From assembly GCF_003206615.1 (NCBI RefSeq), contig NZ_PZJW01000002.1:357803-421802 (forward strand): DNA of 64,000 nt. Reading direction: 5' to 3'. The position numbers and the translations under genes were made by a program. The notes under the pieces are model-generated. The model did not search any database. It saw nothing but the letters and a program-made list of their open reading frames with translations, and had not been told where the DNA came from. Shown here piece by piece: positions 4,565-28,386 of the stretch (position 1 is its first letter; the number at the start of each line of letters is the position of its first letter). The DNA is from Salinicola acroporae. GTDB taxonomy: Bacteria > Pseudomonadota > Gammaproteobacteria > Pseudomonadales > Halomonadaceae.

Positions 4565-5018
4565 CTTGTTCATGCTCCTTGTGATGTGAATTCCGAACCG
4601 TGTGCCGCCGAGCGAAGTCGTCGGCCAGATCGGCGAGTGTGACGTGCGCCATACGCTTGAGCAGGAGAGCTTGGACCTCGGCAAACGTTTCATCGAGTGC
4701 AGCATTGACCGACTGCTCCACGAGACAGTCGGGTGCTTCATGGCGATGGCCGATGGCGAAGACGTCCGGCTCGCCGAGCGCGTTATGCAAATCACGCAAT
4801 GTGATGGCGGCAAGGTCCGAGGCGATACGCCAGCCTCCCGCGTGACCCCGATCGGACACAACGATTCCGGCCCGACGCAGGAAGCCCATGGTGCGGCGTA
4901 CCACGACCGGGTTGGTATTCAGGCATCGGGCCAACTGCTCGGACGTCATCGGATCGTCGAGTTCGGCCATGTGCAGCAGTGCGTGGAGGACTGAGGAAAG
5001 GCGGCTATCTCTTTTCAT
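4557..5018 (-). CDS. Rrf2-family transcriptional regulator
   Basis: A 153-residue winged-helix regulator. The recognition region is TSEQLARCLNTNPVVVRR (about residues 24-41), followed by the typical wing segment GHAGGWRIA. It has only two cysteines and lacks the three-cysteine cluster-binding loop of IscR and NsrR, so an iron-sulfur cofactor is unlikely; YwnA/CymR-like members also lack it. The start at 5018 is chosen because the family begins at this point; an upstream in-frame ATG at 5054 would add 12 unusual residues. The start codon lies inside a perfect inverted repeat (5017-5037), pointing to autoregulation. It heads the three-gene operon that runs to 2985. Confidence 0.87.
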   Translation of the reverse strand: MKRDSRLSSVLHALLHMAELDDPMTSEQLARCLNTNPVVVRRTMGFLRRAGIVVSDRGHAGGWRIASDLAAITLRDLHNALGEPDVFAIGHRHEAPDCLVEQSVNAALDETFAEVQALLLKRMAHVTLADLADDFARRHTVRNSHHKEHEQDA

Positions 5019-5037
5019 GTAACCTATCATGTTACAT
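5017..5037. promoter_or_regulatory. Inverted repeat overlapping the Rrf2 start codon (probable operator)
   Basis: ATGTAAC - 7 nt - GTTACAT is a perfect 7-bp inverted repeat with centres 14 bp apart, overlapping the start codon of the Rrf2 gene. Its position makes it the likely autoregulatory binding site. The assignment to the Rrf2 protein is inference from position and symmetry. Confidence 0.6.
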
Positions 5038-5362
5038 ATAGGTTTATTATTCAAGACGGCAGTGGATTAGAGATCCATGCCGTTGAGAGACTCTTGAAAC
5101 CAGCCGCTCAAGATCAAGCTCTAGCGATCGTCGCGATAACACTAAACCTTGAAGACAAAGACGTCTAACAGGCCAAAAAAACGAATAACCGCGTTGATAT
5201 GTGCGCTAGTTCTGATGAACCCTATGCCAGCTCATGGCCGGAGGCAGCCGATAGCAAGAGACTGCTGCTGGCCGAAAGTTGCTGATAGTCAGGCCACCAA
5301 AATCGAAGCTAATGTTCGAAAATACGCTACCCAAGCAACCTGCCAGAAGTTTCACTGCTCAT

Positions 5363-5398
5363 CACTCCAGCCCCTTGGTGTATGAAGGGGCTGGGGTG
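5363..5398. terminator. Strong hairpin downstream of the NTF2-like gene
   Basis: CCAGCCCCTT (5367-5376) and AAGGGGCTGG (5385-5394) form a perfect 10-bp stem, extendable to 14 bp with one G-T pair, with an 8-nt loop. It starts 11 bp after the stop of the minus-strand gene at 5409. There is no T-run on either strand, so it may be a terminator of reduced strength or an RNA-stabilising hairpin. The rest of 5055-5362 holds no supported gene. Confidence 0.5.
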
Positions 5399-5408
5399 GT
5401 CAGTGTAA

Positions 5409-5885
5409 TTACAGGCCCAGCTCTGTCAGGCCTGGGTGATCATCAGGGCGGCGCCCCAGTGGCCAATGGAATTTGCGTTCGTCTTCCCTGATAGGCATGT
5501 CATTGATGCAGGCGAATCGACGGTGCATCAGACCATCTGCTTCAAATTCCCAGTTTTCGTTGCCGTAAGAACGGAACCAGTTGCCCGAATCATCGTGCCA
5601 TTCGTAGGCATAACGCACGGCGATGCGATTGTCGGTAAAAGCCCAGAGCTCTTTGATCAGACGATAATCCAGCTCTTTTTTCCATTTGCGCGTGAGGAAG
5701 CTTTTAGCTTCTTCGCGATTGGTAGCGAACTCGGTGCGGTTACGCCATTTGGTGTCCAGCGTATAGGCAAGCGAGACCTTCTCAGCATCGCGGCTGTTCC
5801 AGCCATCTTCAGCGAGTCGTACTTTTTCAACCGCGGTTTCGCGAGTGAAAGGAGGAAGTGGCGGGCGAGTTTGGGCATTAGACAT
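5409..5885 (-). CDS. NTF2-like protein, DUF1348 family
   Basis: A 158-residue protein of the SnoaL/NTF2-like DUF1348 family. Recognisable stretches are [17 protein letters not shown] near the N-terminus, [18 protein letters not shown]-type strands in the middle, and the ending [15 protein letters not shown]. Family members are small cone-shaped proteins whose function is mostly unknown. It begins 61 bp after the stop of the TetR gene on the same strand, so the two are probably one transcript with TetR controlling it. A hairpin follows the stop. Base composition is lower in GC than the flanking core genes. Confidence 0.85.
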
Positions 5886-5946
5886 GATGGTGTCTCCAAG
5901 TAAAGTGGATCGGTCAGTTGAGTTAGCGTATTTGAAGCTCAGGCCC

Positions 5947-6516
5947 TTAGCGCGAAGCCTGTTTTAGCAGCAACTGCGCGACTTCCCTTGCGCTGCCCGC
6001 GGCGCTGTAGTCGCCCATGACTCGTGCCATGGTAATTGCGCCTTCCACTAGTACCAGCAACTGTTTAGCTAACAGAAACGGCTGTTCGGTACTCAACTGC
6101 TCGGTTAATTCAAATATATAATCCAACAACTTTTTCTTATGCAGTTTTGCAATTTGGCGAACGGGATCATCTGGGTCACCAACTTCTCCGGCCGTATTGA
6201 TGAACGCACAACCACGGAACCCTTCTGACTCGAACCAGCCTTTGAGCACGGTGAACATATTCAGGATACGATCCTGCGGGGTACCCCCCTTGTCGCATTC
6301 AGTTCTGAACCAGTACATCCACCGTATATCCCGAACCTTCAGCACCGCTTCCGCCATGTCATCTTTGGTAATAAAGTAGCGATAAATACTTTTCCGAGAT
6401 ACTCCTGAGGTTTTCACTAGAAGGTCCATGCTTGTGGCGTAGATCCCATTCTGATAAATCAGCTGGTCGGCGGTCGCCAGGATCTTTTCACGGGTATCTG
6501 CAGGGGCTTTTTTCAC
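5947..6516 (-). CDS. TetR/AcrR-family transcriptional regulator
   Basis: A 189-residue repressor-type protein. The N-terminal helix-turn-helix is at residues about 10-55 ([17 protein letters not shown], then [19 protein letters not shown]). The ligand-binding half contains [18 protein letters not shown], a stretch common to one large TetR subfamily. A perfect 14-bp palindrome lies 38 bp upstream of the start (6554-6567) and is the likely operator. The gene is followed on the same strand by the NTF2-like gene, its presumed target. The effector is unknown. Confidence 0.88.
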
Positions 6517-6553
6517 GGGAAGACCAGTAGTCGGGAGCGTGTAGATCCATGGT

Positions 6554-6567
6554 AGAACGATCGTTCT
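6554..6567. promoter_or_regulatory. Palindrome upstream of tetR gene (probable TetR operator)
   Basis: AGAACGATCGTTCT is a perfect 14-bp palindrome 38 bp before the TetR start codon, in the position expected for an autoregulatory operator. Palindromes of this kind are typical of TetR-family sites; direct binding is inferred. Confidence 0.6.
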
Positions 6568-6854
6568 CCTCGATCAAGTATCACCTGAACAAATTTTCTA
6601 ACCTCATGGCACTGCGTTATGTCCCTCCTCTGGGGCAGACGAGGATGTGACAGTCAATTTCCTCATCGAAAGACATAGCAGGGGCGACCTCGGTTGAGCG
6701 AGCGTCGGATGCGCGTCCGCGTGAACAAGGGGGTTGAGCTAAGGATAAATGGGGGCATAGCTGCGTTAATCTCATAGCTCCGCATGTCTGCTCTTTGCCG
6801 AAAGCGGACCAACTAGCTATTTCACCTGATCAGACCATTCAAAAGGCTACCCAG
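6568..6854. other. Non-coding stretch, first part of the tetR-cbiX intergenic region
   Basis: The full gap from 6517 to 7002 is about 486 bp and low in GC. It contains the TetR palindrome at its left end and two GGGAAA-type palindromes near its right end (annotated separately). I see no gene in it. Confidence 0.4.
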
Positions 6855-6870
6855 TTTCCCAATAGGGAAA
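6855..6870. promoter_or_regulatory. Palindrome 1 upstream of cbiX-like gene
   Basis: TTTCCC-AATA-GGGAAA, a perfect 6-bp inverted repeat with a 4-nt centre. A second copy in opposite orientation lies 49 bp away (6903-6920). Two such sites in a promoter region suggest an operator pair. No gene for a matching repressor is adjacent. Confidence 0.5.
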
Positions 6871-6902
6871 ACCAGAGCGCCATAGGCCCACCGCTTCGCT
6901 AT

Positions 6903-6920
6903 TTTTCCCTATCGGGAAAA
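6903..6920. promoter_or_regulatory. Palindrome 2 upstream of cbiX-like gene
   Basis: TTTTCCC-TATC-GGGAAAA, a perfect 7-bp inverted repeat. Read on the minus strand its core is CCCGATAGGG, matching CCCAATAGGG of the first site except at one base. It lies 82 bp before the start of the cbiX-like gene. It resembles operators of HipB/Xre-type antitoxin regulators as I remember them, but no toxin-antitoxin pair is present. Confidence 0.5.
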
Positions 6921-7002
6921 CCCGGTTATGCTGGTTTCGTGTCGGCTCGTCTTGCCGCGAAAGGCTTGATTTGACACCCATCTGCGCCAGCTTTGAGGTC
7001 CC

Positions 7003-7887
7003 ATGCGAAAGATTCTGCTCGTTGACAACGGTTCCCTGCGCCCTGCCGCGACGCTCAACCTGCGTCGCCTTGCCGACGCCTTGAGCCAGGCCACGGGCGA
7101 GGCGGTCGAGGCCGCATCGCTGCTGCACTCGTTCAAGATTCCGCCCGAGCAGCTCGGCGGGCAGAAGGCCGTCTCGGTAGGGCCGCTGGCCGAACGATAT
7201 GCGGCCGAGGGCGTAACCGAGCTACTGATCCTGCCCTTCTTCTTCGGGCCCAGCCAGGCGCTGACCCGCTACCTGCCGGAGCGTCTGGCCGAGGTGCAGG
7301 CCAGCTACCCGCTGCTGTCGGTGAAGGTCGCCCCGCCACTGGTCGATACGCTGCTGGCACCGGATCTGCGCCTGGCGCAACTTCTCGCCGATAACGTGCG
7401 CGAGCGCATTAGCGGCCAGTCCCGGCCCAAGGTGGTGCTGGTCGATCACGGCAGCCCGATTCCGGAGGTCTCGGCGGTACGCAACTACCTGACCGGGCAA
7501 CTGAGCGCGCTGCTGGCCGATGAGGCCGAGTGTGTGACCTTTGCCTCCATGGAGCGCCGCGAGGGCGATGCCTATCGCTTCAACGAGCCGCTGCTGGAGG
7601 ATCTGCTGGCCTCCCCCGCCCTGGCCGAAGGTGACGTGATCCTCTCGATGCTGTTTCTTTCGCCGGGCCGGCACGCCGGTGAAGGCGGCGATATCGCCGA
7701 GATCTGCGCCCAGGCGATGTCTCGCGCCCCTGGCCTGAATGTCGTGACGACCCGGCTGGTGGGCGAGAACGACGCCATCCTGGAACTTCTCGCCACCCGC
7801 CTGCAGCAGGCGCTGGCCGGCGGGCCGCTGCTGATAGAGATGCCCGCGAGACAGGTCTCTACTTGCGCTCTCCGCCCCCACTCATGA
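7003..7887 (+). CDS. CbiX/SirB-like chelatase-domain protein with replaced C-terminus
   Basis: A 294-residue protein with two CbiX-like halves. The first begins LLVDNGSLRPAATL and has Asn where chelatases have His; the second has the canonical VDHGSPIPE (about residues 147-155) and a second metal-site motif LFLSPGRHAGEGGDI (about 214-228). Families of this type insert cobalt or iron into sirohydrochlorin, but many two-domain homologues are uncharacterised. The last ~15 residues (after EMPAR) differ completely from the end of a second partial copy at 11245-11549, although the preceding ~270 bp are roughly 90% identical. This copy therefore probably lost its native 3' end during a rearrangement and reads into acquired DNA before stopping. 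Confidence 0.8.
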   Translation: MRKILLVDNGSLRPAATLNLRRLADALSQATGEAVEAASLLHSFKIPPEQLGGQKAVSVGPLAERYAAEGVTELLILPFFFGPSQALTRYLPERLAEVQASYPLLSVKVAPPLVDTLLAPDLRLAQLLADNVRERISGQSRPKVVLVDHGSPIPEVSAVRNYLTGQLSALLADEAECVTFASMERREGDAYRFNEPLLEDLLASPALAEGDVILSMLFLSPGRHAGEGGDIAEICAQAMSRAPGLNVVTTRLVGENDAILELLATRLQQALAGGPLLIEMPARQVSTCALRPHS

Positions 7888-11168: not shown

Positions 11169-11549
11169 ATGAGCGACCTTCGCGGCGACACCATCCCCCG
11201 CCCCAGCGCAGAGATGCGCCGGATCATGTTCGATACGCCGTGGGACGGCGCCTATCGCTTCAACGAGCCGCTGCTGGAGACGTTGCTGGCTTCGCCGGCC
11301 CTGGCCGACGGCGACGTGATCCTCTCGATGCTGTTTCTTTCGCCGGGCCGAGACGCCGGTGAAGGCGGCGATATCGCCGAGATCTGCGCCCAGGCGATGT
11401 CTCGCGCCCCTGGCCTGAACGTCGTGACGACCCGGCTGGTGGGCGAGAACGATGCCATCCTGGAACTCCTCGCCACCCGCCTGCAGCAGGCGCTGGCCGG
11501 TGGGCCGCTATTGATGGAACTGCCGGCGATCAGCACAAAGGACGACTGA
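11169..11549 (+). pseudogene. Chimeric ORF: LtaE-like N-terminus fused in frame to CbiX-like C-terminus
   Basis: A 126-codon open frame. Residues 1-23 (from MSDLRGDT through FDTPW) match the start of L-threonine aldolase, whose intact gene begins at 14392. Similarity to that gene extends about 15 nt upstream of the ATG (AAGGCCAA in both). From residue 27 (AYRFNEPLLE) to about 118 it matches the C-terminal third of the CbiX-like protein at 7003, at roughly 90% DNA identity over about 270 bp. Both parts stay in frame. The metal-site His of the CbiX part is replaced by Asp (GRDAGEGGDI). It cannot be an active aldolase (no lysine domain) or chelatase. It is best read as a recombination relic; expression as a small protein is possible but unproven. 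Confidence 0.8.
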
Positions 11550-22728: not shown

Positions 22729-23535
22729 TCAGTTCAATATCTTGCACAGCGTTCCGGTACCCAAAATGCCAGGAACGCTGCCCTTCTCCATGATTTGTCG
22801 TGACAAGTCCTTCTGGATCGAGCGATACAAGGGAAGAATCGAGCTTCGCATGCCATACTCGGCATGTCGCTGATCGATATAAAATGCCGCCCGCTCACCC
22901 CGAAAATGGATTGGCTGGGATACCTGGGAAAAGCGAATCCCCGACCTCGCCAGTAACCTCTGGAAACGATTTTCCATCATCGCAAGAACGTGAAAGCGTC
23001 CTATCAGCCCGGTAAATGCCGTAGCACATAAAAAAAGGCTAACGCCAATCATCGGGAAAAAGCGCCTTTCCTGCTGTGAGAAAACGAACTCCCCAAACCC
23101 ATCCACCGCCGCTTCTTCAACCCTGCTGGACCGAAAATAGCTCGGGATCGCCACGCGAGATATCTCGCAAAGATCCTCGGACCGGACCTTGGAGTCGAGC
23201 TTTATAGCGACCCCGTGTTCACGACAATGTTCCTCGATTGGTAGACCATAGCCACCCTCATCCCAGTTATCGGGAAACACGATTCTCATACATCCTGCGG
23301 AGAGTCCTGTCGCCCGGTGCTCAATCAGGCAATGGAGAGATCGACCATCGAACTCGTCCCGTTCGATCCGGTTCTTCGCGTCAATAGGCTCATAACCCAG
23401 CTCTTCACAATAAACTTTGTGCCTGAGGGAAAAAACCCGCGAGCGGTCACTTTCGGACGCGGCAAAGACGACACTAAAAAGATCAAAAAAATCATTCTCC
23501 ACTCCAGCCCCCTTATCCCTTATAAAATTCTGCAT
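22729..23535 (-). CDS. FeeM / autoinducer-synthase-like N-acyltransferase
   Basis: A 268-residue protein of the GNAT-related family that includes FeeM N-acyl amino acid synthases and the PEP-CTERM/exosortase-associated acyltransferases, a cousin of LuxI-type synthases. Diagnostic stretches are VFSLRHKVYCEELGYEP, LIEHRATGLSAGCMRIVFP and CEISRVAIPSYFRSS. No exosortase or PEP-CTERM gene is present here. Its start overlaps the end of the GGDEF-EAL gene by 23 bp, so it is translationally coupled and the last gene of a four-gene minus-strand operon. It probably transfers an acyl group from acyl-ACP to an amino acid, giving a lipid signal or surfactant. The product is unknown. The GC content is clearly lower than in neighbouring genes. 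Confidence 0.8.
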   Translation of the reverse strand: MQNFIRDKGAGVENDFFDLFSVVFAASESDRSRVFSLRHKVYCEELGYEPIDAKNRIERDEFDGRSLHCLIEHRATGLSAGCMRIVFPDNWDEGGYGLPIEEHCREHGVAIKLDSKVRSEDLCEISRVAIPSYFRSSRVEEAAVDGFGEFVFSQQERRFFPMIGVSLFLCATAFTGLIGRFHVLAMMENRFQRLLARSGIRFSQVSQPIHFRGERAAFYIDQRHAEYGMRSSILPLYRSIQKDLSRQIMEKGSVPGILGTGTLCKILN

Positions 23536-26338
23536 CCGCTATCGTGGTGGGCCTTCCCAGATAAAACCCCTGAACGTAGTCAACACCATATCCACGAAGG
23601 TACGGCAACAGCTCAGACCTATCGACAAACTCCGCGACAGTTTTCTTGCCCATCCCCTTAGCGATATCCACGATGGCCTTGACTATCAACTGGCTTTCTT
23701 CGCTCTCGGGAAGCTTTTGAATAAACGAACCATCTATTTTTATATAGTCGGCAGGAAACTGACCCAGATAGTGAAAACTGCTAAAACCAACACCAAAATC
23801 ATCCAACGCCACCTTGCAACCTAAAGCCCGGATGCTCTCCAATACACATCTCGCTGAGGCAAAATCGGTCACGGCTGCAGTCTCGGTGACCTCGATGATG
23901 ATCCGGGCAGGATCAACCGCATGACGCGAGAACTCATGCTTCATGAAATCAGTCAAGTCACCGTCATGCAAAGACTGTCCTGATAAATTGATAGCCAAAT
24001 TGGCCGTGGTGTCGGCAAGCGTAGACATCAAGCGAATGCCATTCGATAACACCCATTTGTCGACCGCAACGATTTGCCCACTCTGCTCGGCGACCGGTAT
24101 GAAAATACCGGGAGACAAGTTTTCACCGTTGGCATCTCTTAGCCGGAGTAGAACCTCATAGTGTTGGACGTCGAAATCGAACAAACGAAAAATTGGCTGG
24201 ACCATGAGTTCAAAATCGTCATTGAGTAGCGCATTGCGGATCATCTCTACCCAATAAACGCGCTGTTTTATCTCCTCCCGTCCCTGCTGCTCGGGAGACA
24301 GGAGATACCAACGCTGCGCTGCATCGACTTTCGCCTGGTACATCGCATAATCGGCGTTGGCCATCAGTTCATCGGGAAAAGCCCCGTTAGCCGGATAGAG
24401 CGCAATACCAATGCTGGCGCTGGCGCGATGGATACGACCCTCGACATGCAGAGTCTTCTGTTCCAGATGGTCCGCAATTCGCTGAGCCATATCGACAGCA
24501 CTCTGTTGGGATGCATGCTCGAGGAGAATAGCGAACTCGTCCCCTCCCAAACGCGCCACGACATTACCCCGCCCCAGTTCCGACAAGGCCGCTGCGACTG
24601 ACCGTAGCAACTGATCGCCCGATTGATGTCCGCTAGTCTCGTTAACTTCCTTGAAGCGGTCCAGATCAAGATAAAGAACTGCGCCAAACGAGCTGGGTGT
24701 AACGGCGCGAGACAAGGCTTCTTCAAAAAACCGTCGATTGTAAAGCTCGGTCAGAGAATCTCGACTGGCCAACCAGAGCAGTCTCGTTTCTGCCAGCTTT
24801 CGCTCGGTAATATCCACCCCGACAGAAATGAGCTCCTGATGGGAACCACGATCTTCTGTCTCCAGGGGAGTGTGATACCAGACGATGGTTCTGATCTCGC
24901 CATCCCCCGAGACTAACTTGCTTTCCTGTTGACCACCACCATCAAAAAATTCATCAATATTAACCAGGTCTGCCGCAAAGACATCCTGGAATTTATTATC
25001 AGACAGCTGATCAGACGACTGTCCTGTTAGCCATTCGCAAAACCGGTTGGTCAAGGTGATATGACCATTTCGGTTATGAATTACGATTAAAACTTGAGCG
25101 GTATTGAAAAGGCCTGACACGAAGTCACGTTCTCTTGCCAGCTCCTTCACACGGTTTTCCAGCTCGACTCCCCGAAGGTTTATCTCTTGCTCCATACCCT
25201 CAAGTTTGGTTTCCAGTTCGATTGCCGTGCCCTCCAGAACGTCAAGCTCATCCAGGAAGAAGGCCTTCGTTGGCGGCATCGAATCTCGCATCACGTCGTA
25301 TCGTCGCTGTGCTAACAAGGGAAGCTTTCGACTAATTATTCTTAGCCTATCCATTCGATTCTTCAACATGCTGAACAGAATCACTTCCGAAGCCAACCAA
25401 CCCAGCAGTGCAATCAAAAGAACCATACGCGTAGTGCTGGAAATCGAATTTATCTGAGCCGTAACATCCGATACCAGCAAGAAATATCCGGATTTTTCGC
25501 CCACTTGCTGATTGTCTTTATCGATGGGGATCGCAATGACTTCAAAGACCTTGTTATCCTCGGTATATCGAGCGACCTTTCCATCAACCTCGGAGAACGT
25601 TATACCGCCAGCGATGGATTTAAGCAGCGGCCAGCTAGTATCTTCATGTGTCAAGGCAATCAAATTCGCATTCCAGCTTTCCAAAAACCTGTCATTGGCA
25701 AATCTGGTCAACCCCGAGGCAGTAACTAACAGCGCAACTTCGCTACCGGAGCTTCTTTGCATATAGCGAGTCACATCGGCAAGCGAACGGGAAACCATGA
25801 TGACGCCGGCGTCCATGCCTTCTGCCAGCACAGGAACAGCCACATATTGGCGACACTCTCGGTAGCAGGCTAGCCTCTTCATTGGCTTTTCTTCTTTGAT
25901 CACCTGTCCAAGCCATTCGGCATCTACAGCGGCTTGACTATCAGGCTGTCCCTGCCCTAGTGTTATTACACTTTTAGTATCGCTATCGTAGACACTGACG
26001 TCATCGAGTCCGGCATCTAACTGGAGCGTGGGCCACTGAGGTGATAAAGCCGATTCTATGTCCGAGGCGTCGCCCTCAAGTAAGGCATGACTCAGGCTGG
26101 GGGAAGATGCCAATAGGCTAGCTATTTGCCGCATGGCATCCGCCGAACTTTGTAAAGTCAGGGATACTTCATACCGCTGGCGATCATAGAACGATTTTTG
26201 AGATTGACTAAATTGCTGTACCAAGGCGTGATTGCTCACCCATGCAACAAGGCTTGCCAATGCCAGCAGCAAAAAGCTAGTAAATACCAACGCCCTCCAT
26301 TTTAGACTAATCCGAAAAACATTCTTTCGATTGTGCAT
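23513..26338 (-). CDS. Membrane-bound PAS-GGDEF-EAL c-di-GMP protein
   Basis: A 941-residue receptor in the inner membrane. Transmembrane helices near residues 14-36 and 303-325 bracket a ~265-residue periplasmic sensor with a Cys-containing segment CYRECRQYVAVPV. A PAS domain follows at about 405-515. The GGDEF domain (about 525-680) has an intact RLGGDEFAIL. The EAL domain (about 695-935) has EVLLRL in place of EALLR but keeps the catalytic Glu, Asn (INLSGQSL), Glu (EVTETAA), Asp pair (DDFGVGFSSF), Lys (IKIDGSF) and QGFYLGRP. Both cyclase and phosphodiesterase activity are thus possible. It follows the porin gene by 24 bp and overlaps the acyltransferase gene. The periplasmic ligand is probably linked to the upstream PstS-like protein. 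Confidence 0.9.
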   Translation of the reverse strand: MHNRKNVFRISLKWRALVFTSFLLLALASLVAWVSNHALVQQFSQSQKSFYDRQRYEVSLTLQSSADAMRQIASLLASSPSLSHALLEGDASDIESALSPQWPTLQLDAGLDDVSVYDSDTKSVITLGQGQPDSQAAVDAEWLGQVIKEEKPMKRLACYRECRQYVAVPVLAEGMDAGVIMVSRSLADVTRYMQRSSGSEVALLVTASGLTRFANDRFLESWNANLIALTHEDTSWPLLKSIAGGITFSEVDGKVARYTEDNKVFEVIAIPIDKDNQQVGEKSGYFLLVSDVTAQINSISSTTRMVLLIALLGWLASEVILFSMLKNRMDRLRIISRKLPLLAQRRYDVMRDSMPPTKAFFLDELDVLEGTAIELETKLEGMEQEINLRGVELENRVKELARERDFVSGLFNTAQVLIVIHNRNGHITLTNRFCEWLTGQSSDQLSDNKFQDVFAADLVNIDEFFDGGGQQESKLVSGDGEIRTIVWYHTPLETEDRGSHQELISVGVDITERKLAETRLLWLASRDSLTELYNRRFFEEALSRAVTPSSFGAVLYLDLDRFKEVNETSGHQSGDQLLRSVAAALSELGRGNVVARLGGDEFAILLEHASQQSAVDMAQRIADHLEQKTLHVEGRIHRASASIGIALYPANGAFPDELMANADYAMYQAKVDAAQRWYLLSPEQQGREEIKQRVYWVEMIRNALLNDDFELMVQPIFRLFDFDVQHYEVLLRLRDANGENLSPGIFIPVAEQSGQIVAVDKWVLSNGIRLMSTLADTTANLAINLSGQSLHDGDLTDFMKHEFSRHAVDPARIIIEVTETAAVTDFASARCVLESIRALGCKVALDDFGVGFSSFHYLGQFPADYIKIDGSFIQKLPESEESQLIVKAIVDIAKGMGKKTVAEFVDRSELLPYLRGYGVDYVQGFYLGRPTTIADAEFYKG

Positions 26339-26362
26339 TTAACCGGCCTTAAATTGGCGTCA

Positions 26363-27556
26363 TTAGAAAAAATAGGAAGCCTGGAATAGCAACATATTCC
26401 AATATTTATCCTGCTTTTCAGACGCCCCCTCACCAACCACAGGCACCCATCCCGTGCCTTCAATATGATGTAGCTCTGACGACAGAAGAAACCTGGGATA
26501 AACTTGCCACTGAAGACCGGTTGTCCAATCCTTTGCATATCGAGAAAACGCAGGCCGACGGGACTGTTCCGCGAAACTAGCCCCCCTTCTATCATCACGG
26601 TCCACGACGTACGAGTCATACCTCACGATCCAGTCCCAGTCGACATTCAGCCTTCTTGAATATTGGACATACCAGCTTTCACCGGTAATATTGTAGTTAT
26701 AAGGATCTGAGAATTTTTCTGTTTTCAGATTTCTCAGCGCATATTCGGTCGTAAAGGACCAGTTTTCTTGATTATATTGAAAAGAAAAAATCCACGGCAC
26801 GAAGAGGAAGTCACCATTTCCCGGCGCTTCTTCCGCGGAGTCGAACTTGGCTTTGACCCTAGCGTTTGTCAGCGCCAGAACGATGGCACCGCCACCGTAC
26901 TCATATCTTGCTTGGCCAATGTAGGAAGTTTCTCCAGAAAAGTCCCCCAAGCCGTTACTGCCTAATAACGATCCTGCCACTTGGCTATCGAACCTGGGGT
27001 TTCCGACGCCGACCTGGAGCCTGACTACGCTGTTGTCCATGCGCCGCTCAACGTAGCCCATGACGCCGTCAGAACTTAACGCCGGCTTTCTAGTGCGATC
27101 AAAGTATATAGACTGTGGCAGCAGTATACTGGGGCGGGTGATCGCCACGTCTCGGGCCTGATTGTATAGTCCGAACGGGTTCTTGAATCGTCCAAACTGC
27201 ACGCCAACTGTATTTTGGTTATCAGTCAGAAACTGATAGTCCACCACGCCATAATCAAGCTCGGGGTCATTCAGTTCGCCATCATCTCCGGCTTGCCTAG
27301 CCAGCATTTGACCCGCCACCAACACGTTGTTTAGCGGTCGAAAAGAGGCGTTCAAGCCTAGTTCGGTGTACTCCCAGCTTCCACCACCCTCGCTACTGGG
27401 TCCGAAGAAATCATTATGGTCGGTCACGATGAGTGCTTGACTCATGAAGCCATGAACCTGGAAGGTGTCCGACATTTCCACGGCGTGGGCGTTGGCCGCG
27501 AGCATCAGGGATATCGCTGCTTGAGTTGCGATTGAGAGCGGTTTCAGTTTATTCAA
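26363..27556 (-). CDS. Outer-membrane beta-barrel (porin-like) protein
   Basis: A 397-residue outer-membrane protein: signal peptide MNKLKPLSIATQAAISLMLA ending at NAHA, then alternating beta strands and a C-terminal aromatic residue (FQASYFF) as required for BAM-dependent insertion. The strands GVQFGRFKNPFGLYNQARD and YVQYSRRLNVDWDWIVRYD are typical of porins annotated in marine gammaproteobacteria. The start is a TTG inside the last codons of the PstS-like gene (8-bp overlap). No strong ribosome-binding site is visible, which fits translational coupling. The substrate is unknown. It is the second gene of the four-gene signalling operon. Confidence 0.85.
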   Translation of the reverse strand: MNKLKPLSIATQAAISLMLAANAHAVEMSDTFQVHGFMSQALIVTDHNDFFGPSSEGGGSWEYTELGLNASFRPLNNVLVAGQMLARQAGDDGELNDPELDYGVVDYQFLTDNQNTVGVQFGRFKNPFGLYNQARDVAITRPSILLPQSIYFDRTRKPALSSDGVMGYVERRMDNSVVRLQVGVGNPRFDSQVAGSLLGSNGLGDFSGETSYIGQARYEYGGGAIVLALTNARVKAKFDSAEEAPGNGDFLFVPWIFSFQYNQENWSFTTEYALRNLKTEKFSDPYNYNITGESWYVQYSRRLNVDWDWIVRYDSYVVDRDDRRGASFAEQSRRPAFSRYAKDWTTGLQWQVYPRFLLSSELHHIEGTGWVPVVGEGASEKQDKYWNMLLFQASYFF

Positions 27557-27977
27557 TGTCGAGCACCCGAACCTGGTCCGTCAGGCTTGATTGTTTGATG
27601 TATCCGACACTGCCGGGCGTGGAGGCGACCTCCTCGATCATTTCAGCTTCGCTGGCGACCTCGTTGGGGGCCTGCCCGGTACCGGAAAATACGGCACGGT
27701 CCCAGGCGAGTCGAAGTTGATGCGGATAGACACCCAAGATTTTCTTGGAAAAATCCTCGTGAATCGGGTTGTCGTCCGGCAGGACGAAGACGTGCACGGC
27801 CTGCCCATCGGGGAAAGTTCTCTGTCGCATCGCGAAAATGGCTCTCAATGTCTCTAGCGGCAGAGAGGCCTGCATTACCGTCCTGTTGGCGATAACGACG
27901 GTTGCTGGCTCGTCTCCGAAACTATTCACGGATAACAGAGAGAGCAGCAGCACACAGCCGGTCAGTGTCCGCCGCAT
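27549..27977 (-). CDS. PstS-like periplasmic substrate-binding domain protein
   Basis: A 142-residue secreted protein with a signal peptide (MRRTLTGCVLLLSLLSVNSFG). The mature part has the small PstS-like fold seen in proteins annotated as phosphate ABC transporter substrate-binding: VVIANRTVMQASLPLETLRA, IFAMRQRTFPDG, and PGSVGYIKQ. At 142 residues it is about half the size of a full PstS, and no permease or ATPase gene is near. It heads an operon with a porin, a membrane c-di-GMP protein and an acyltransferase. It more likely serves as a periplasmic sensor partner than as a transporter component. Confidence 0.78.
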   Translation of the reverse strand: MRRTLTGCVLLLSLLSVNSFGDEPATVVIANRTVMQASLPLETLRAIFAMRQRTFPDGQAVHVFVLPDDNPIHEDFSKKILGVYPHQLRLAWDRAVFSGTGQAPNEVASEAEMIEEVASTPGSVGYIKQSSLTDQVRVLDIE

Positions 27978-28386
27978 GCGTCACGACTCCCCGACATGTC
28001 TGCTTCCGCCATGATGTTTGTCAAAGACACACCCCGACCCGAAATCGATTGCATTTCAGAGACATCTACGACCCGGTCTTTTTCATCGCCCAGCATCGCA
28101 GGTTGGAGTGCCTGATAGTCTCGGAATAACTCTGGGAACGGCGGCCATCTTATGGATTAGGCTACCGGCTTTCTCTTTCAGCATCGTTGCTGTCCCCTAC
28201 TACCGCATTATTATGCGCTGCCCTGGACACTGCCTGGCGTGGCCAGAAAGGCAGCCTTGACTTCGCCCGCCAATCCGCAGAGCTTCCATCACAGCATACT
28301 CATATTGCCGTGACTCGCCCAGCGACCAGGCCGATCGTGGAGCGTTGTGAAGCGCTGTCGGGAGGTGATGACTGATGGCGGGAATC
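27978..28386. other. Intergenic region upstream of the PstS-like operon
   Basis: About 409 bp with no supported gene. It must contain the promoter of the four-gene minus-strand operon ending at 22729, but I cannot single out a convincing -35/-10 pair. It also marks the right edge of the lower-GC segment. Confidence 0.4.

Follow-up and report, generated by a model that had tools for sequence, protein, structure and literature searches.

A Halomonadaceae operon in which an acyltransferase and a segment of a putative porin vary together beside a c-di-GMP receptor-like gene

In the Salinicola acroporae genome, a four-gene operon of a kind shared by many salt-loving bacteria lies within the 64,000-nucleotide stretch analyzed here (the window; from contig NZ_PZJW01000002.1). 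In order of transcription, it encodes a PstS-like protein, a porin-like protein, a membrane GGDEF-EAL protein expected to act on cyclic di-GMP (c-di-GMP), and an acyltransferase. The described system closest in gene layout is NspS-MbaA of Vibrio cholerae. As set out in the parts of PMC8079147 drawn on here, a gene for a periplasmic binding protein lies just upstream of one for a GGDEF-EAL protein of the inner membrane that carries an EVL motif, and small molecules of "self" and "other" are proposed to be read through c-di-GMP. Unlike the single PstS-type lobe encoded here, NspS is a polyamine-binding protein; moreover, the circuit described in those parts of the source includes no porin, and polyamines are not acyltransferase products (PMC8079147).

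The acyltransferase has its relatives among the N-acyl amino acid synthases and the exosortase-associated family TIGR03694, with which it shares membership above cut-off and the same catalytic residues. According to part of PMC9762135, a TIGR03694-type enzyme of Neisseria gives rise to N-3-hydroxyacyl ornithines and lysines. Enzymes that make N-acyl tyrosines and carry a fused PilZ domain, which binds c-di-GMP, are also known, as reported in the relevant part of PMC4897644; there the fused domain provides the link to c-di-GMP, whereas in the present operon a separate receptor-like gene provides it. The operon also differs from TIGR03694 systems in that it joins the enzyme to porin, PstS-like, and GGDEF-EAL genes in a family in which we found no exosortase above cut-off (275 genomes). 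The solved structure closest to the GGDEF-EAL protein is RbdA (PA0861) of Pseudomonas aeruginosa (5xgb; E value 6e-84, residues 466-932), a likeness that covers the end of the PAS domain, GGDEF, and EAL only.

In the agr locus of staphylococci and comQXPA of Bacillus, a divergent allele block lies between conserved flanks, and the maker of the signal and its partner are matched. Both work with peptides and a receptor kinase, whereas the pair described below matches an acyltransferase with one segment of a putative outer-membrane barrel. We found no description of this gene set in the open-access literature, with subscription journals outside that search; a previous reading of the window's letters alone (the sequence-only reading) had likewise known of no described system with this makeup. 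The parts are of known kinds; what appears to be new is the matching of porin and acyltransferase in a locus that has a c-di-GMP arm.

Joint variation of the porin segment and the acyltransferase

In Salinicola, the operon has a constant position between the same neighbors, yet it exists in two divergent forms. Between genomes G187 (locus L049) and G189 (L051), the downstream neighbor and the PstS-like protein are 99% and 96% identical, respectively, while the porin, the sensor, and the acyltransferase are 56%, 40%, and 33% identical. About 260 bases into the porin open reading frame (ORF), DNA identity drops from approximately 0.9 to approximately 0.55, and it is back to approximately 0.95 past the end of the acyltransferase gene. 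As read from this comparison, the block from approximately porin residue 86 to the acyltransferase end is replaced between near-identical flanks. In two other genera, the middle of the porin and the acyltransferase differ, but most of the intervening 2.8-kb GGDEF-EAL gene does not.

We analyzed this pattern in 136 of 141 Halomonadaceae loci (L047, L250, L269, L290, and L309 were dropped as cut or short), using pairs of loci with a GGDEF-EAL identity of at least 0.88 or, as a looser limit, 0.80. Among the first 80 loci, 52 pairs reached the stricter limit; acyltransferase identity did not exceed 0.50 in 17 of them and was 0.73 or higher in the other 35. Whole-porin identity was at most 0.795 in the acyltransferase-different pairs and at least 0.843 in the acyltransferase-same pairs, while no difference was seen for the PstS-like protein (0.88 versus 0.90) or the sensor (0.89 versus 0.90). 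The variable part of the porin mapped to residues 161-340 with the barrel ends conserved. This segment and the acyltransferase had a partial rank correlation of 0.51, a value reached in 0 of 500 permutations.

The prediction that porin and acyltransferase match was noted before 60 further loci were analyzed. It held in 71 of 75 new pairs (37 of 41 acyltransferase-different and 34 of 34 acyltransferase-same pairs); at the looser limit, 232 pairs gave agreement in 133/139 and 77/78, with 15 in between. Considering all 127 pairs at the stricter limit, acyltransferase identity was bimodal (58 different, 69 same, none between). In the different pairs, mean identity fell by 0.22 to 0.44 per comparison window within porin residues 161-340 and by no more than 0.10 in the rest of the porin, the PstS-like protein, and most of the GGDEF-EAL protein. 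When only pairs sharing no branch of the GGDEF-EAL tree were counted, the porin segment had changed in 12/12 acyltransferase-swapped and 0/26 acyltransferase-kept pairs (Fisher test, 4e-10); at the looser limit, these numbers were 17/17 and 0/36.

Over the 136 loci, the partial rank correlation of the acyltransferase was 0.55 with the porin segment and between -0.05 and 0.05 with the other four gene parts. A match between the whole sensor and the acyltransferase was considered and dropped: its partial correlation was 0.68 given recA in 27 genomes (G120 being excluded for a recA in another frame, and recA being cut in G189 and G237), and with the porin segment included, it was 0.08 for 80 loci and 0.05 for 136. 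The PstS-like protein covaries with the porin ends (partial correlation, 0.52), which fits a relay between them and fits plain adjacency too.

The alleles of the swapped pairs are still TIGR03694 enzymes (26/26 match at E values up to 0.001), and at 62.5% identity, the 136 loci hold approximately 54 acyltransferase types. Matched divergent alleles inside conserved flanks, which we take as the mark of a signal specificity-type locus, were found in these species-level comparisons. Co-specificity of porin and acyltransferase is, in our judgment, very likely, and with the two still matched across an unchanged intervening gene, the data argue for selection for fit.

The four proteins and the distribution of their genes

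The sequence-only reading had staked its idea of a system on the four genes being kept together elsewhere, and they are: 139 of the 141 family loci read, window included, have all four in one order on one strand (80/81 and 59/60), and the association recurs in other families. In the two exceptions, L047 and L290, a contig end truncates the locus. Homologues of the acyltransferase and the porin occur in 165 and 167 of 275 family genomes, respectively; by comparison of the lists by eye, 163 genomes have both and 106 neither, while G031 and G190 have the acyltransferase without the porin and G089, G221, G242, and G243 the porin without the acyltransferase. A scan of genome contigs found three named loci, all from Salinicola. 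We regard it as nearly certain that the operon is one functional unit. In Halomonas sp. PA16-9, all four genes lie on a 1.83-Mb record listed as a plasmid (L156:6797-12276).

The acyltransferase scored 170.3 bits against TIGR03694 (cut-off, 111.95) and is a member of that family. Residues R38, E58, D60, D63, R84, E124, S126, and R127 (numbered from the ATG), which we take to be the catalytic residues of LuxI/N-acyl-amino-acid-synthase-type enzymes, are invariant in 52/52 linked enzymes. Membership in the LuxI acyl-homoserine lactone (AHL) synthases was rejected (NF010408, 18 bits against a cut-off of 292); Pfam Autoind_synth was above cut-off but as two partial stretches, and AHL synthases in the PDB match only distantly. 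The enzyme probably makes a fatty-acyl amino acid. The main paper on this acyltransferase family is reportedly that of Craig, Cherry and Brady from 2011. As the sequence-only reading had pointed out, the enzyme occurs without its usual exosortase: none of the 275 family genomes has an exosortase above cut-off, the S. acroporae genome itself gave no match, and G172 gave one weak hit. An exosortase association was accordingly rejected for the family.

The GGDEF-EAL protein consists of dCache_3 (residues 62-295), PAS_4-like (413-514), GGDEF (524-672), and EAL (698-930) domains, the last with an EVL motif, and two hydrophobic stretches (approximately 10-40 and 303-326) flank dCache_3. The GGDEF motif is intact in 60 of 61 sequences; the EAL-domain residues are present in 59 of 61, the remaining two being without the domain.

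The PstS-like protein scored 13.2 bits against Pfam PBP_like_2, under the cut-off of 27, over approximately residues 95-188 of the 267-position model, and PstS chains in the PDB match it by profile at an E value of 1e-4 over one lobe. With its length of 142 amino acids, one lobe only, and a family score below cut-off, identity as a full two-lobe PstS was rejected, and because it is one lobe, phosphate sensing is doubtful. Related short genes annotated as phosphate-binding lie on plasmids of Alteromonas (L157:5950-7527), adjoining a type IV CRISPR locus; Pseudoalteromonas (L158:5902-7516), adjoining an annotated porin; and Caballeronia (L159:5911-9661), adjoining an EAL gene. The 397-amino-acid protein had no match among Pfam, NCBIfam, or PDB profiles. 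We refer to it as a putative porin, which it resembles in its N-terminus, its C-terminal FF, and the absence of hydrophobic stretches (no hydrophobic 19-mer).

Outside Halomonadaceae, 32 of 369 sampled genomes of the class have a porin match (35 when three family members are counted). We examined 27 places in 26 of these genomes, leaving out G357, G413, G465, G466, G471, and G621. A pstS gene adjoins the porin gene in 27/27 places, and a dCache-type GGDEF protein is encoded beside the pair in 21/27; of the remaining six places, two end at a contig end and four (L175, L176, L178, and L179) are without a GGDEF gene. A TIGR03694-type acyltransferase gene lies beside the pstS/porin core in 10/26 genomes, in several gene orders, some of them divergent. 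A single clade was rejected for the linked acyltransferases (P value of the approximately unbiased test [p-AU], 2.4e-5; 70 rows, quick tree) as well as for the acyltransferase-linked porins (p-AU, 3.1e-4; 48 rows), and the trees require at least 4 and 6 changes of linkage, respectively. The exact number of origins is unsure because some branches are long. In 38 genomes tested for exosortase, it was present in 25/29 with an unlinked acyltransferase versus 4/9 with a linked one (Fisher test, 0.02); the 20 acyltransferase-centered regions from other families were hand-picked.

In two genomes of family f106, G495 (L175:6147-10160) and G378 (L178:7196-11474), a StlD/DarB-type ketosynthase gene (617 and 563 bits, respectively; cut-off, 450) adjoins the pstS-like/porin pair. 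This gene and a second one replace the GGDEF-EAL gene and the acyltransferase; the second had no library match and presumably resembles DarA of dialkylresorcinol synthesis.

A possible self-recognition system and its alternatives

The anatomy and conservation of the operon, its intact catalytic motifs, the repeated linkage, and the porin/acyltransferase match are established, and they suggest the following scheme. The acyltransferase would attach a fatty acyl chain to an amine or amino acid, with the allele determining the identity of the product. The matching outer-membrane partner would be porin residues 161-340, recognizing the acyl product or passing it, by export or import. The PstS-like lobe and the conserved porin ends may signal to the periplasmic dCache domain, conveying either what state the porin is in or a ligand it has let through; the input of this domain to the GGDEF-EAL enzyme would raise or lower c-di-GMP. 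Bacteria would thereby recognize their own type of N-acyl amide, from themselves or from kin, and couple surface life to it. We infer that an acyltransferase would most simply be fitted to an outer-membrane barrel through the product it makes; because the sensor does not follow acyltransferase type, the receptor probably does not read this product directly. The sequence-only reading had proposed a complete route from an outside ligand to c-di-GMP and on to a lipid. The conserved unit stands, but this order is less likely than that of a porin-handled lipid reported by the c-di-GMP arm, because the closest partner of the acyltransferase is the porin segment, not the receptor.

We rate the self-signal reading as a whole at slightly less than an even chance. 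More tentative is its fuller form, a self-recognition system with dozens of types in one family, in which an acyltransferase and its matching porin segment feed a common c-di-GMP receptor and the acyltransferase has been recruited several times to a wider porin/PstS-like/c-di-GMP core. The specificity partner in this quorum-sensing-like locus would be the outer-membrane barrel, and a dialkylresorcinol-type synthase would take the place of the acyltransferase in two genomes from a single family. If the match holds chemically, an outer-membrane protein would be the specificity partner of a self-made lipid, such lipids would be linked to c-di-GMP, and approximately 54 natural acyltransferase types would be available for reading out specificity determinants. 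The annotated yet unexplained short "phosphate-binding proteins" adjoining porins would also gain a role.

Several observations weigh against these interpretations. All pairs compared are between species, not between strains. Pairs L243/L261 and L261/L283 keep the porin segment despite a different acyltransferase allele in L261, pairs L237/L266 and L266/L276 are borderline failures of the predicted match, and none of the discordant L261 pairs was picked when independent pairs were selected greedily. The last approximately 21 residues of the GGDEF-EAL protein (comparison window from residue 921), which adjoin the acyltransferase, also change with it, a pattern expected if a breakpoint lay next to that gene. 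The sensor domain shows a partial correlation of only 0.05 with the acyltransferase once the other parts are held constant. In other families, the core lacks the acyltransferase in 16/26 genomes examined, and exosortase is carried by the 4/9 tested genomes mentioned above. Finally, L160:4238-8920 (G497, family f108) is a Halomonadaceae-like pstS-porin-GGDEF-EAL core without the acyltransferase; because its porin groups inside the Halomonadaceae branch (98*), this core was probably transferred from there. Because the core occurs without the enzyme, in the 16 genomes and in G497, the acyltransferase arm is not obligatory.

Among the alternatives, the one that survives best, although we consider it unlikely, is that the product is a bioactive N-acyl amide (a surfactant, an antibiotic, or a surface coating), with the porin as its dedicated exit or as a tolerance factor and c-di-GMP only timing its use. 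Such export or self-protection accounts for the porin/acyltransferase match and for a sensor that does not follow acyltransferase type, and characterized N-acyl amino acid synthases, according to part of PMC4897644, produce surface-active N-acyl tyrosines. However, the operon has no gene for an inner-membrane exporter, and in the 16/26 genomes with a core without the enzyme, the porin must serve without this lipid.

It is improbable that the porin varies because phages, predators, or antibodies target it at the surface, with the enzyme altering the surrounding surface so that both change. A barrel with a differing middle and constant ends does look like surface diversification, and allele replacement between near-identical flanks would be in keeping with it. 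On its own, however, this explanation gives no reason for the porin to pair one-to-one with an intracellular enzyme whose alleles all remain in one family, and the operon is without a surface-modification gene.

Slightly less probable still is nutrient sensing, in which phosphate or a similar ion enters via the porin and is bound by the PstS-like protein, the GGDEF-EAL protein reports it, and the acyltransferase makes a phosphorus-free, phosphate-saving aminolipid. The weak PstS similarity, the annotation of the plasmid kin as phosphate-binding proteins, and weak matches of ornithine acyltransferase models to 10/26 alleles of the swapped pairs are in line with this proposal. But a single lobe cannot form the clam-shell phosphate site alone, transporter genes are absent from the operon, and a constant nutrient leaves dozens of porin-matched acyltransferase types unexplained.

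Linkage only, in which recombination moves blocks of neighboring genes and brings in distant alleles with no functional match, could describe the Salinicola block, which spans everything from porin to acyltransferase, and L261 is one case of two segments reassorting, but we consider it very improbable given that other genera exchange both neighbors and not the 2.8-kb gene between them, save its last residues, in 12/12 independent cases.

Coordinates, start sites, and surroundings of the operon

All four ORFs of the sequence-only reading are present on the minus strand where it had placed them (Table 1). It had also described the operon as GC-poor, which agrees with a GC content of 0.509 for the operon and 0.635 for the remaining window; 38/40 family loci likewise have a lower GC content in the operon than in its flanks, with a mean difference of 6 points.

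Table 1. Features of the operon in window coordinates
Feature	Position	Strand	Description
pstS-like gene	27549..27977	-	142 amino acids; transcribed first; signal-like N-terminus; single PstS-type lobe (periplasmic binding protein)
Porin-like gene (putative outer-membrane barrel)	26363..27556	-	397 amino acids; likely TTG start, 8-bp overlap with pstS
Porin residues 161-340	26537..27076	-	Variable segment; changes along with the acyltransferase
Membrane GGDEF-EAL gene	23513..26338	-	941 amino acids
TIGR03694 acyltransferase gene	22729..23502	-	From the probable GTG start; longest ORF 22729-23535, from ATG at 23535
Intergenic stretch 5' of the operon	27978..28386	-	409 bp; expected location of the promoter

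The two gene overlaps of the sequence-only reading fared differently. In L032, the first start codon of the acyltransferase frame is the equivalent of the GTG at 23502, while L033 and L034 have a start codon upstream in this frame. The GTG is preceded by AAGGGGG, and a start there leaves a 10-bp gap to the GGDEF-EAL gene. Because the L032 frame begins at the equivalent of this GTG and AAGGGGG precedes it, the acyltransferase probably starts at GTG 23502 rather than ATG 23535, and the proposed 23-bp overlap is probably a start-call artifact. The 8-bp overlap likely stands. A TTG eight bases before the pstS end is present in 11/15 loci compared (11/11 of the same genus and 0/4 others) and likely serves as the porin start, a call we keep at likely because the TTG also falls within conserved pstS codons.

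In the intergenic stretch upstream of the operon, a consensus scan gave no convincing promoter, and the counts from a promoter and terminator scan resemble those of shuffled sequence. No riboswitch or other known RNA was found in this stretch, which had no Rfam family match; one sub-threshold hit lay elsewhere.

The window has two further features away from the operon. A 287-bp direct repeat occupies positions 7563-7849 and 11243-11529, with copies 92% identical; the former copy lies within ORF 7003-7887, a fragment of which is thus duplicated 3.7 kb away. A second GC-poor stretch (0.51) at positions 5001-7000 contains ORFs 5409-5885 and 5947-6516; by eye, the second of these is TetR-like.

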